Below are positions 2,341 to 45,183 of a DNA stretch of 64,000 bases, piece after piece. The notes beneath the pieces were generated by a model. The model made no database searches and was not told the DNA's origin. It worked only from the letters and a program-made list of their open reading frames with translations. Source of the DNA: Clostridia bacterium. Lineage in GTDB: Bacteria > Bacillota > DTU025. Within the stretch, counting starts at the first letter, position 1. Each line of letters opens with the position of its first letter. A program made the translations under genes and the position numbers. The stretch spans positions 1 through 64,000 of the forward strand of contig JAYFQW010000006.1 of the NCBI GenBank assembly GCA_034926675.1, read 5' to 3'.

Positions 2341-3561
2341 TTATTTCGCGATGACCTTGGCGAATCGCCTTTTCCCCACCTTGATTATCATCCCATCCCT
2401 GGGCTCGATCTCAGAGGCAGGATCATCCACGCGAGTGTCATCGATCCGCACCCCACCCTGATCGATCAGGCGCCTGGCCTCCCCATTGCTAGCAGCAAGC
2501 CCGACTGCCACAATCAGCTTGGCAACGGGAATCTTCCCATTGGCGTACTGATCTTTTCCTAGGCTGACGGAAGGAATGTCCTCTGGGAGTTCATGCTTGC
2601 AGAACACCCTGTCGAACTCCTGCTCCGCCCCTCGGCTGGCCTCGACTCCGTGGAACTGCATCACTAACCTCGAGGCTAGCCGCCGCTTGGCCGCCATGGG
2701 ATGAAGCGATCCCGACTTCAGGCCCTGCTCTATCTCTATCTTCTCCTCTAGCGGCATCGTGGTCGCAGAGTCGACGTACGGCACGATCAGCTGATCGGGA
2801 ACGGACATGGTCTTGCCGAAGATCTCAGCGGGGGACTCGTTGATCCCGATGTAGTTTCCCAGGCTCTTGCTCATCTTCTGGACACCGTCAAGGCCAGGCA
2901 GGATCGGCGTCAGGACAACGCACTGCCCTTCCTGTCCATATTCACGCTGAAGCGTCCGGCCCATAAGGTTGTTGAACTTCTGGTCGGTTCCGCCGAGCTC
3001 CACATCAGCCTCGAGCGCAATGGAATCGTATGCCTGCATGAGCGGATAGAAGAACTCATGAATCCCTATTGGCCTGCCCTCTCGATACCTGTTTTCGAAA
3101 TCGTCGCGTTCGAGCATTCGGGCCACAGTCACTTTGGCAGCAAGCTCAATCACATCGGCGAACGTAAGCTTCGCAAGCCATTCGGAGTTGAACACGACCC
3201 TGGTCCGCTCGCAGTCGAGGATCTTGAAGATCTGAGTCTCATACGTCTTGGCATTCGCCTTCACTTCATCCTCAGATAGCTGCCTGCGGGTCTCCGACTT
3301 TCCAGTCGGATCTCCGATTCTGCCTGTGAAATCACCGATTACTATGATGGCCTCATGCCCCATGTCCTGGAACTGACGCATTTTCTGGAGCACAACAGTG
3401 TGGCCTATGTGGATGTCGGGCGCTGATGGATCCAGGCCCAGTTTCACTCGGAGAGGCCTGCCACTCTTCTGCGACTTCCTGAACTTCTCCGCTAGGTCCT
3501 CTTCAGAGATGACCTCTGCAGCGCCTCTCTTGATTATGTTCAGCTGCTCTACGGGATCCAT
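2341..3561 (-). CDS. tyrS: Tyrosyl-tRNA synthetase
   Basis: Class Ic aminoacyl-tRNA synthetase charging tRNA-Tyr. Visible elements: the HIGH signature near residue 48-51 (DIHIGHTVV), the KMSKS loop at 229-233, and a C-terminal S4 RNA-binding domain ([20 protein letters not shown]). At 406 residues it matches the TyrZ-like subgroup of Bacillota. The ATG at 3561 (MDPVEQL) is chosen because GGGGGCG lies about 11 nt upstream; a GTG 21 bp further up lacks a binding site. Only about 130 bp separate it from the divergent penicillin-binding protein gene, and I see no T-box there. Confidence 0.92.
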
Positions 3562-3644
3562 AAACTGACACGCCCCCTGCACCCCAACTGTATCCTTAGT
3601 CTAGCACAGCGCTGCGCTGAGGGTCAACGAAAGCGCCCTGGCTA

Positions 3645-41014: not shown

Positions 41015-41178
41015 TAACCCTCCAGTCGTTCCGGCGCACTCGCGTGAGCGCCAGTGGAGCCAACGTATACTAGTATGACCCATGAAGGCTCGGCACTGCA
41101 ATAGATGGGGCAGTCGGACGGCTCAAGTGGCGCTAACAAATGCGCATCCTCGACCGGCGTACCGAGTCTCTCAGAGGT

Positions 41179-41196
41179 CCAGTACGGATTTCGTAC
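41179..41196 (+). repeat. Palindromic repeat copy 1
   Basis: CCAGTACGGATTTCGTAC; one mismatch to copies 2 and 4. The core GTACGGA-T-TCCGTAC is an inverted repeat around one central base. Confidence 0.85.
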
Positions 41197-41211
41197 GCGC
41201 AATACTGGGGA

Positions 41212-41229
41212 CCAGTACGGATTCCGTAC
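41212..41229 (+). repeat. Palindromic repeat copy 2
   Basis: CCAGTACGGATTCCGTAC, identical to copy 4 and 33 bp from copy 1 (start to start), about three DNA turns. Confidence 0.88.
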
Positions 41230-41382
41230 GACGCCAAGGGCAAAACCGCCCGATGGCCATCGAAAACTCGGCAGTTCAGCCATTAACAGCATATATGCCC
41301 ACATGCAGGGGGCGAAACTACCATATATTCGGTGCGTATGCGCCCTCCCCGTCCGCGTCAGCCACAATTCGTGCCTGGCGTT

Positions 41383-41400
41383 GTACGTATTCCGTACTGG
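41383..41400 (-). repeat. Palindromic repeat copy 3 (inverted)
   Basis: On the minus strand CCAGTACGGAATACGTAC, two mismatches to copies 2 and 4. Confidence 0.8.
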
Positions 41401-41412
41401 CAGCACGACGAA

Positions 41413-41430
41413 CCAGTACGGATTCCGTAC
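41413..41430 (+). repeat. Palindromic repeat copy 4
   Basis: CCAGTACGGATTCCGTAC, identical to copy 2; 30 bp from copy 3, inverted relative to it, forming a 48-bp imperfect inverted pair. Confidence 0.88.
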
Positions 41431-41434
41431 AGCG

Positions 41435-41480
41435 TGCACGGAATGCACGGAATGCACGGAAGCACGGAATTGCACGGAAC
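41435..41480 (+). repeat. 9-bp tandem repeat array
   Basis: TGCACGGAA three times in perfect tandem (41435-41461), then GCACGGAAT and TGCACGGAAC variants. It begins 4 bp after palindromic copy 4 and shares its ACGGA core, so it may have arisen from it. Confidence 0.85.
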
Positions 41481-41827: not shown

Positions 41828-43765
41828 ATGATGTCCTGGTCAAGACGGGGGACTGGTGTTCTCCTGATGGCAGCGGCGCTCTGTGTCGCTGGCATGTCCT
41901 ATGGCTTCGGCGTCACGGCGCTGGCGGCATCCTATTCCGAGGCCCCGATGCTGGCAACCCTGGTGAAGCAGGGGAAACTCAAGCCTCTGGATCAAAGGCT
42001 TCCGGAAAACCCTCTGCTGGTGCCTCCGGTGAAAGAGATCGGCGCATACGGCGGCGCGCTTCGCATTGCCATTCTGAGTCCGGCCGACATTGGAAACGTC
42101 CATTCGGCGCTTCTGAGTGAGCCACTCCTGCGCTGGAACCGCGATGGCAACAAGGTCGTTCCGAACCTGGCCGAAGCGTGGAGCGTGTCGGGGGACGGGC
42201 TGGTGTACACGTTCCGTCTCCGAAAGGGCGTAAAGTGGTCTGACGGCGCCCCCTTCACTGCCGACGATGTGATGTTCTGGTACAACGACATCGTCCTCAA
42301 CAAAGACCTCTGTCCCACCACGCCTGCATGGATGATATCAGAGGGAAAGCCAGCCAAGGTCGAGAAGGTTGATGGTCACACCGTCAGATTCACTCTTGCC
42401 AAGCCAAACGCTGTCTTTGTGGAAAACCTGGCCTTTATGGGCGGAAACGCCGACAGCAACTCCATCATGGCGCGTCCCAAACACTATCTCAAGTCTTTCC
42501 ACGCGAACTACACCCCCAAGGCCACCCTGGACGACATGGCCAAGAAGCAGGGGCTCGATTCGTGGTACGCGCTCTTCCAGGATAAGTGGGACTTCAGGAC
42601 TAACCCGGATTGTCCTACGGTCGCCGCCTGGAGACCGCTCAACGCCCTCCGGGGCAAGGACTATCAGGCTCTGGAACGCAACCCCTACTACTGGAAGGTG
42701 GACCCCAACGGCAATCAGCTGCCCTACATCGACAAGATCGCGGTTCAGATCGTGTCGAACGTTGAAGTTCTGAACATGAAGGTCGCCGCTGGCGAAATCG
42801 ACATGGACTGGGGACACATGACCCTCCCCAACTATCCATTCCTGAAAGAGAACGCCGATAAGGGCAACTACAAAGTACTGCTCTGGAACTCCACATTAGG
42901 CTCGAACCTGCAGTTCCAGTTCGACCTGAATCACAAGGATCCCGTGCTGAGGGAGATCTTCAACAACAGGCAGTTCAGGGCGGCGCTCTCCCTGGGCATC
43001 AACCGCGACGAGATCAACGAGCTGTGCTACATGGGCCTCGCAGAACCCAGGCACGCCACAGTGATGCAGGGATGCCCCTACTACACACCAGGCATTGACA
43101 AGCTGTACACCGCATATGATCCCAAGACGGCCAACGCGATGCTGGACGAAATGGGACTGGGCAAGAAGGGCAAAGACGGTTTCAGACTGCGTCCCGACGG
43201 CAAGCCCCTGGAATTGCTCATTGAGTATCCTCCGACCACAGAGTTCGGACCGTGGGGAGACGCCATCCAGCTCGTGACCAACTGCTGGCAGGATCTGGGC
43301 GTCAAGGCGGTCGCCAAGTGCATCGCCGATGGGACTCACGTCACCCGTTCTTCCACAAACGAGATGGACTTCACGGTTTGGGCGTACGGCAGAGGACTTC
43401 ACCCCCTGATTCAGCCCACGTATCTGTTCCCCTCCGTTCCCAACCGCTCCACCGGAAGCGTCTTGTACGCCCAGTGGTATGCGACAGGAGGCAAGCAGGG
43501 TGAGAAGCCCAGCGGCGACATGCTCAAAGCCATGGAGATGTATGCCCAGTATGTAGTGGCTGTGGACGAGAACGAGAGGCTTCGCATAGGAACAGAGATT
43601 GTGAAGATCGCAGCGGAGAACATGTGGGGAATCGGAGTAGTGGGAATCGCGCCGGTTCCGATCGTGGTGAAGAAGAACGTTATCAACGTGCCTGAGAAGT
43701 CCACACGCGATTGGCTATTGATCCAGATCGCGCACACCAATCCCGAGCAGTACTTCATCAAGTAG
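41828..43765 (+). CDS. ABC transporter substrate-binding protein, family 5 (peptide type)
   Basis: 645 residues. A signal peptide (MMSWSRRGTGVLLMAAALC, cleavage near ALAA-S) without a clear lipobox precedes a DppA/OppA-like fold: LRWNRDGNKVVPNLAEAWSV, YTFRLRKGVKWSDGAPFTADDV (quoted in parts), NPYYWKVDPNGNQLPY, ALSLGINRDEI and PYYTPGIDKLYTAYDPK. It captures peptides or muropeptides outside the membrane for the permeases. The ATG at 41828 is preceded by AGGAGGAGG; an ATG 18 bp upstream lacks a site. First gene of the transporter operon. Confidence 0.88.
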   Translation: MMSWSRRGTGVLLMAAALCVAGMSYGFGVTALAASYSEAPMLATLVKQGKLKPLDQRLPENPLLVPPVKEIGAYGGALRIAILSPADIGNVHSALLSEPLLRWNRDGNKVVPNLAEAWSVSGDGLVYTFRLRKGVKWSDGAPFTADDVMFWYNDIVLNKDLCPTTPAWMISEGKPAKVEKVDGHTVRFTLAKPNAVFVENLAFMGGNADSNSIMARPKHYLKSFHANYTPKATLDDMAKKQGLDSWYALFQDKWDFRTNPDCPTVAAWRPLNALRGKDYQALERNPYYWKVDPNGNQLPYIDKIAVQIVSNVEVLNMKVAAGEIDMDWGHMTLPNYPFLKENADKGNYKVLLWNSTLGSNLQFQFDLNHKDPVLREIFNNRQFRAALSLGINRDEINELCYMGLAEPRHATVMQGCPYYTPGIDKLYTAYDPKTANAMLDEMGLGKKGKDGFRLRPDGKPLELLIEYPPTTEFGPWGDAIQLVTNCWQDLGVKAVAKCIADGTHVTRSSTNEMDFTVWAYGRGLHPLIQPTYLFPSVPNRSTGSVLYAQWYATGGKQGEKPSGDMLKAMEMYAQYVVAVDENERLRIGTEIVKIAAENMWGIGVVGIAPVPIVVKKNVINVPEKSTRDWLLIQIAHTNPEQYFIK

Positions 43766-43890
43766 ACTGGTTCAGAATCTGTCGGGGTCAGCCCAGATCG
43801 GCTCGGCTCAGACCGCTCGTCGGCCGGCCCCGACTCCTCACTTCGGCTCCTCGCGCCAGTGCCGATATCGCTTGCCATGCGGAGGTGATC

Positions 43891-45183
43891 ATGATGGTCG
43901 AAGGAACGCGCTGCGCCGCCGATCATGCCAACGATCATGTGAAAGTGAAGCTTGGCATCACGAAATTGCTCGAGGATCCAGGAAAGTATCTTGGCAGAAT
44001 GTGCCCTGGCAGCGCGCATCGCGGCAGTGCGCATCGCGGCAGTGCGCATCCCGGCAGTGCGCATCGCGGCAGGCCGCGTGTGGGCCTCGTGGCCAACTAC
44101 AATGCTGTAGACGAGCATGCCAGGCCGATCATCCAGCTCCTTCGCGAGCGCTCCGAAATCAGCCTGCGTGCGATCTACGTGGCCGAACACGGCCTTTGGG
44201 GATGCGAGCAAGCCGGCGTGAAACTGGGAGACTCGGTAGACGCATTCACAGGCGCCCAGGTCTTCAGCCTATATGGCGACACTATGAAACCAACACCCGA
44301 AATGCTCAGCGACATAGACGTGCTCGTGTGTGACGGAGCCGATATCGGCTCCCGTTACTGGACATGCCTTTCGACCATGGCCCTGTGCATCGAGGCAATG
44401 GCCCAGGCAGGCAAGCCCATAATCGTGACGGACAGGCCCAATCCCCTGGGCGGGGCGGCAGTTGAGGGAAACGTCTTGGACATGGAATACCACTCTTTCG
44501 TGGGGTTCTTTCGCATACCCATCCGCCACGGCATGACCCCGGGGGAGCTAGCGAGGCTGTTCGCCGGGGAATCGGACCTCGACGCCGACCTTACAATCGT
44601 TCCGATGGACGGCTGGACAAGGGACATGCTGTTCCCCGATACCGGCCACTTTTGGACTGCCACCCCGAACATGCCGGACTTCGAAACCGCGCTGCTGTAT
44701 CCGGGGACGTGCCTGTTCGAGGGGACAGCTTGCTCTGAAGGTCGAGGAACTACGAAGCCTTTCAAACTCATCGGAGCGCCCTGGATCAACGCGATCGACC
44801 TCGCCGACCGGCTGAACAACATGGGCATAGATGGGGCGCGCTTCAGGCCGGCGCACTTCAGGCCGGCATTTTCAAAGCATGCCGGCGAGCAGTGTCAGGG
44901 AGTCGAGATATACATCACAGATCACGGGCGCATAAGGCCAGTGCATCTGGGTCTTTCCATGTTATGTACGATGAGGGAACAGCGCCCCGACCTCTTCGCC
45001 TGGAACGTCCCCTTCATCGACTTGCTGTCGGGCGGCGCCGATTTGAGGACCTGGATAGACGATGGTTCAACACCAGAGCAGATATTGAGCCGGTGGAGGC
45101 CGGGCATGAACCAGTTCCTGGGCGTTCGCGAGCGTTACCTGCTGTATGACGGCAGCAGCGGCGCGGGAAACAGGAGGCGATGA
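43891..45183 (+). CDS. namZ: DUF1343/NamZ-like exo-beta-N-acetylmuramidase, no signal peptide
   Basis: 430 residues. The conserved block from about residue 60 matches the NamZ (YbbC) family: GLVANYNAVDEHARPIIQLL, YVAEHGLWGCEQAGVKLGD, SLYGDTMKPTPEML, DVLVCDGADIGSRYWTCLST, DRPNPLGGAAVEGNVLD, FFRIPIRHGMTPGELARLF, YPGTCLFEGTACSEGRGTT and RFRPAHFRPAFSKHAGE. NamZ removes N-acetylmuramic acid from muropeptides. Unlike the secreted Bacillus enzyme there is no signal peptide, suggesting action on imported fragments. Residues 40-59 are four GSAHR/GSAHP repeats encoded by a 15-bp tandem repeat just before the domain. GGAGGTGATC precedes the ATG. It lies inside the transporter operon. Confidence 0.8.
   Translation: MMVEGTRCAADHANDHVKVKLGITKLLEDPGKYLGRMCPGSAHRGSAHRGSAHPGSAHRGRPRVGLVANYNAVDEHARPIIQLLRERSEISLRAIYVAEHGLWGCEQAGVKLGDSVDAFTGAQVFSLYGDTMKPTPEMLSDIDVLVCDGADIGSRYWTCLSTMALCIEAMAQAGKPIIVTDRPNPLGGAAVEGNVLDMEYHSFVGFFRIPIRHGMTPGELARLFAGESDLDADLTIVPMDGWTRDMLFPDTGHFWTATPNMPDFETALLYPGTCLFEGTACSEGRGTTKPFKLIGAPWINAIDLADRLNNMGIDGARFRPAHFRPAFSKHAGEQCQGVEIYITDHGRIRPVHLGLSMLCTMREQRPDLFAWNVPFIDLLSGGADLRTWIDDGSTPEQILSRWRPGMNQFLGVRERYLLYDGSSGAGNRRR
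44008..44067 (+). repeat. 15-bp tandem repeat inside namZ
   Basis: Four tandem copies of GGCAGTGCGCATCGC (copies at 44008, 44023, 44038, 44053; copies 1 and 3 each differ by one base). Length is a multiple of three, so the frame is kept (GSAHR x3, GSAHP once). Confidence 0.92.

Follow-up and report, generated by a model that had tools for sequence, protein, structure and literature searches.

The matS sites of the E. coli Ter macrodomain, which are served by MatP, occur singly. In looped repressor arrays, such as those of lambda OL/OR and phage 186 CI, paired operators lie on one helical face and a second group is located at a phased distance. Twenty-three matS sites are present in E. coli, and MatP forms dimers, and tetramers on DNA (PMC7394560). 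REPs are usually present in more than 100 copies per genome, carry a GTAG or CGTC tag, are often solitary and, in the case of the GTAG type, are associated with a RAYT (PMC2817692, PMC3733652).

The palindromes described here were found in the window, i.e. the whole stretch of 64,000 nucleotides that was analysed, from a Clostridia bacterium. A preliminary description had reported four palindromic repeats in the gene-free region 41179-41430, and all four were confirmed: CCAGTACGGATTCCGTAC is present exactly at 41212 and 41413, with one mismatch at 41179 and, on the minus strand, with two mismatches at 41383. When up to three mismatches are allowed, there are 5 matches against 0.05 expected, a number which is reached in 0/100 shuffles. 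No supported gene is present in the region, as had been stated, but mechanical open reading frames do cross it. The four repeats share a 15-bp register, the palindrome GTACGRAWTYCGTAC with an odd centre, which starts at 41182, 41215, 41383 and 41416. In this register both pairs are spaced 33 bp from start to start; the 30 bp given earlier for one of them does not hold and arose because the 18-mer had been read in opposite orientations. The distance from pair to pair is 201 bp. The parts of the window copy are as follows.

41142-41181, no strand: left flank, weakly conserved, common to several copies
41182-41196, plus strand: site 1, GTACGGATTTCGTAC, with outward arm GTACGG and inward arm GTACGA, conserved in 19/19 copies
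41197-41214, no strand: spacer of the left pair, 18 bp
41215-41229, plus strand: site 2, GTACGGATTCCGTAC, 33 bp from site 1
41230-41382, no strand: interior, 153 bp in the window copy
41383-41397, plus strand: site 3, GTACGTATTCCGTAC, 168 bp from site 2
41398-41415, no strand: spacer of the right pair, 18 bp
41416-41430, plus strand: site 4, GTACGGATTCCGTAC, 33 bp from site 3
41431-41475, no strand: right flank, weakly conserved, with a 9-bp tandem repeat TGCACGGAA in 5 copies in the window copy

The assembly holding the window comprises 3,383,625 bases (3.38 Mb) in 90 unordered contigs. Both the motif and the 291-bp region served as queries against it, and each copy was taken with about 4 kb per side where the contig allows; copies are labelled L061-L079, L066 being the window copy. 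The genome-wide search, which the preliminary description had suggested, located the motif in 19 four-site units and nowhere else in the genome. The 19 places are scattered and carry like-built units of ~250 bp (249-bp unit), one of which is truncated where contig C45 ends. Site starts in the 18 complete copies are spaced 33-168-33 or 33-167-33 bp, with 33-167-32 bp in two close copies. An exact search of the whole genome for GTACGN5CGTAC gave 72 sites, 72/72 of them inside the units, while a control pattern gave 2; the units hold 74 sites, two of which begin with GCACG, leaving the 72 of the GTACG type. No lone site outside the four-site units was detected by this exact search of the 3.38-Mb genome, and every one of the 35 pair-pattern matches in the genome is accounted for by the units. 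Therefore, the sites occur as tetrads only.

Membership of a dispersed REP-like family is the nearest of the three readings proposed in the preliminary description, with 19 intergenic copies to its credit. The palindromes would then act as RNA hairpins or as gyrase/IHF sites and would be mobilised by RAYT. Like REP/BIME elements (BIME-1, RIB/RIP), the units are dispersed, extragenic, inverted palindromes, often at gene 3' ends, and BIMEs bind proteins, the segment between their palindromes being able to do so (PMC2817692). However, more than 100 copies, the tag, solitary units and RAYT are all absent here. PF01797 finds no Y1_Tnp (RAYT) gene in the genome, with its positive controls giving matches; the flanks of the sites vary and contain no conserved GTAG/CGTC tag (as defined in PMC3733652); and solitary copies are replaced by rigidly spaced tetrads whose interior has no stable fold. 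An identity of the units as REP/BIME-type palindromes is improbable. An RNA gene or structured RNA was also considered and rejected, there being no Rfam match and the z-scores of the interior fold scattering around 0 across copies, overall no better than shuffles.

The two arms of a site differ according to their position in the unit. G occupies base 6 in 68/72 outward arms and in 30/72 inward arms (p = 3e-12; restricting the test to ten representatives gives p = 1e-7), i.e. the outward half-sites are nearly fixed and the inward half-sites are relaxed. From this polarity it follows that the unit consists of two sites facing one way and two facing back, in a mirrored layout. Mirror symmetry of the interior beyond the sites is not significant (p = 0.2), and orientation of the units shows no clear pattern with respect to GC skew. 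Mirrored sites resemble transposon ends, and the main rival explanation is a MITE-like non-autonomous element, in which the pairs would be inverted two-site ends for transposase binding around a short non-coding filler, the transposase being lost or unassembled. Short, non-coding, dispersed and with inverted end motifs, the units do have the appearance of MITEs; their copies have spread, some of them recently, into mostly unrelated, intergenic targets.

Selection was assessed by comparing the copies within this one genome, including six sister pairs. Interiors differ between copies by 48% on average, i.e. the DNA between the sites retains about half identity, and the copies are old. Length of the interior is 152-153 bp in every complete copy, unlike the flanks, where insertions and deletions reach tens of bases. 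The arm bases differ by 0.5% between copies. Changes between sister copies are necessarily later than the duplication, and the six pairs show 132/914 of them in the interior but none in the arms (0/240; p = 1e-14). Spacers within the pairs, which in many copies start with TGG and finish with ACC[A/T] and elsewhere vary as the interior does, carry 26/216 changes, a rate similar to that of the interior (p = 0.38), and gene conversion of whole ends is therefore unlikely. A low mutation rate would be no obvious alternative for the constancy of the arms, since they contain CpG steps. The invariant arms and the fixed interior length thus indicate constraint on the sites as well as on their phasing. 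In a dead insertion, the arms would not be expected to remain unchanged after duplication as the interior accumulates changes, and a fixed interior length is not required of a MITE.

Recent duplications, as seen by BLAST among the loci, also bear on the MITE-like explanation. Homology extends over 387-611 bp and its ends differ between copy pairs, with no end in common; inverted pairs are present, and fixed termini are not apparent. The closest copies are L067 and L068 (94.6% over 392 bp) and L062 and L070 (92.5%). Duplicated segments carry the 3' ends of neighbouring genes: the left flanks of L062 and L064 contain the broken 3' end of a phosphatase-nuclease gene which is whole at L079, and the right flank of L074 contains a nitroreductase-like 3' gene end whose source is at L075. 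No parent or larger element with the same ends was found in the assembly, which may itself lack repeats, and all pairs and sites detected there belong to the 19 units. The units appear to have spread as segments with variable flanks, which is closer to segmental duplication based on recombination than to end-defined transposition. A MITE-like origin is, on balance, unlikely.

Some further features were observed around the units. The nitroreductase-like gene at L075:3297-3800 is apparently frameshifted before its 3' end, and L074 has that 3' end only. A stretch of 178 bp at L068:4444-4621, ~195 bp from the unit, is 71% identical to window positions 44405-44582, which lie within the ORF 43711-45183, and is possibly a gene remnant; near the start of the same ORF, a 15-bp tandem repeat GGCAGTGCGCATCGC is present in 4.3 copies (window 44008-44072). 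Short tandem repeats occur within 300 bp of the units at 0.70 per kb, against 0.15 in the rest of the loci and 0.04 in other genome regions, these controls not being matched intergenic DNA. They are seen at window 41435-41479 and at L061, L065, L074, L075 and L078.

Neighbouring genes were taken from ORFs and named with Pfam, gene starts being solely those of the ORFs. The copies are intergenic and dispersed, and their neighbours share no function. The neighbour pairs include TPP enzyme/DUF3866, histidine kinase/fatty-acid synthesis-like protein, C69 peptidase/OppC permease, L,D-transpeptidase/amidohydrolase, enolase-like enzyme/ABC ATPase, POR subunit/MgsA ATPase, alkaline phosphatase-nuclease/SIS protein, FliS/sigma-54 activator (response regulator), ArsR/DUF1667, F420 ligase-like/RpiR, GntR/PFK and Indigoidine_A/BMC, among others. 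At least six copies are located in convergent gaps (L063, L064, L069, L070, L071 and L079) and most of the remaining ones in tandem gaps; the sole clearly divergent copy is that of the window, with an M16 protease gene 81 bp away (longest ORF) and an SBP gene 380 bp away. Beside the unit of L078, positions 2803-3576 encode a 257-aa protein without a Pfam match (FEFNGQQHYE...), whose sequence is reminiscent of endonuclease-like proteins.

Cooperative repressors typically bind palindromic sites that are phased and paired, and the units could accordingly be read as arrays of operators through which a repressor or activator controls a regulon of 19 loci. The divergent gap of the window copy fits such a role, and as in looped repressor arrays, paired sites on the same face are accompanied by a second phased group. 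However, the gene context is the reverse of what is expected for operators. The 19 copies lie by functionally unrelated genes, and convergent gaps outnumber the single divergent one. No single-site operator, autoregulatory ones included, is present in the genome, and no sigma-70-like promoter was found in the window between 40900 and 41900. The earlier suggestion of operators for the ABC operon or the M16 genes is not supported, as the 18 other copies adjoin unrelated genes and no promoter would be expected near those in convergent gaps. An operator array is quite unlikely.

Partition (centromere-like) or replication-related arrays were also considered, as multi-site phased arrays resemble plasmid centromeres. 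In this genome, however, ordinary parS (TGTTTCACGTGAAACA) is present elsewhere, as two exact sites and one site with 1 mismatch at C9:22827-31244, a cluster which probably marks the origin region, and contig C9 is without any copy of the unit. Nineteen dispersed chromosomal copies are unlike an origin, and no plasmid or phage match was obtained. The proposal of a partition or origin-type site, in the sense of ParB/parS, is thus not supported, and a partition array more generally is very improbable.

Relatives of the unit were looked for in several sets of sequences. A profile search of 298 related genomes, including seven others of the family and four of the order, yielded a single match, of 17 bits, which was attributed to chance. 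Within the family the motif is no more frequent than the control, and the same generally holds for the other relatives examined. Tetrads of similar design built on a different palindrome were not found in 0.56 Mb and 0.25 Mb of two family members or in 0.6 Mb of this genome, and viral contigs, plasmids and phages contained no four-site unit of such kind. Among the matches listed in a paired-site scan of wider genome contigs, only other repeats were present. A Clostridia tandem repeat holding GTACGGATTCCGTAC (L102), from among the matches listed, was rejected as convergence. Also among the matches listed, Methylococcaceae have an abundant different repeat with inverted pairs GTACGCTGTGCGTAC/GTACGCACAGCGTAC ~30-39 bp apart, which is REP-like (L086, L088-L089, L091, L093-L097, L099-L101 and many more, mainly Methylococcaceae). 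Literature on the 15-mer consists of four nucleosome papers only, judged from their titles to be a coincidence.

The best reading of these observations is a dispersed binding array that is specific to the lineage and maintained by the host; on it, a putative dimeric protein would assemble a looped or wrapped complex. Specifically, we propose, at a probability of roughly one half, that the four palindromes form one functional unit which has been copied to 19 intergenic places, is kept intact by host selection and acts as a chromosomal anchor point for the putative dimeric protein. Counted against a host-maintained array is the fact that the copies have clearly spread by duplication, as a mobile element would too. 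A chromosome-level role, such as anchor, boundary or tether, is the most economical one because the copies are kept regardless of gene context.

In the proposed mechanism, the most likely ligand of each 15-bp palindrome would be a homodimeric, sequence-specific protein, presumably of the helix-turn-helix type; the centres of the half-sites are 10 bp apart, i.e. one helical turn. By simple arithmetic at 10.5 bp per turn, 33 bp corresponds to ~3.1 turns and 167-168 bp to ~16 turns. Each pair would accommodate two adjacent dimers, separated by about three turns. The two mirror-oriented pairs, which share one DNA face at a distance of about 16 turns, would be brought together, with the interior of ~150 bp looped or wrapped in a compact complex. 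That the spacing suits cooperative binding had been suggested earlier, and for binding on one face of the DNA the suggestion is strengthened by a spacing which is fixed in all copies. The unit is probably a landing platform for a putative chromosome-binding protein and not a local gene switch, and the units may serve as fixed chromosome anchors in organisation, tethering or domain boundaries.

The nearest working analogue is MatP/matS, to which we do not assign the units. Both have ~20 copies of a short palindrome, conserved independently of gene context and, in the case of matS, kept across a chromosome region, and the dimer/tetramer protein which binds matS would have its counterpart in the protein predicted here. 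However, the present units differ from the single matS sites in being rigid four-site structures with an overall mirrored layout.

We know of no chromosome-organising system of such type in the lineage. It is tentatively possible that the units represent a novel type of nucleoprotein site on the chromosome, a compact palindrome tetrad with mirror symmetry that works only when complete, with a lineage-specific protein wrapping or looping ~250 bp and anchoring or insulating the chromosome at ~19 points. The unit is small and rigid, and one DNA probe could fish out its binding protein, while the rule of four sites or none leads to a direct prediction on assembly of the complex. The family is a clear case of intergenic DNA which is strongly maintained in every copy without relation to the adjoining genes.
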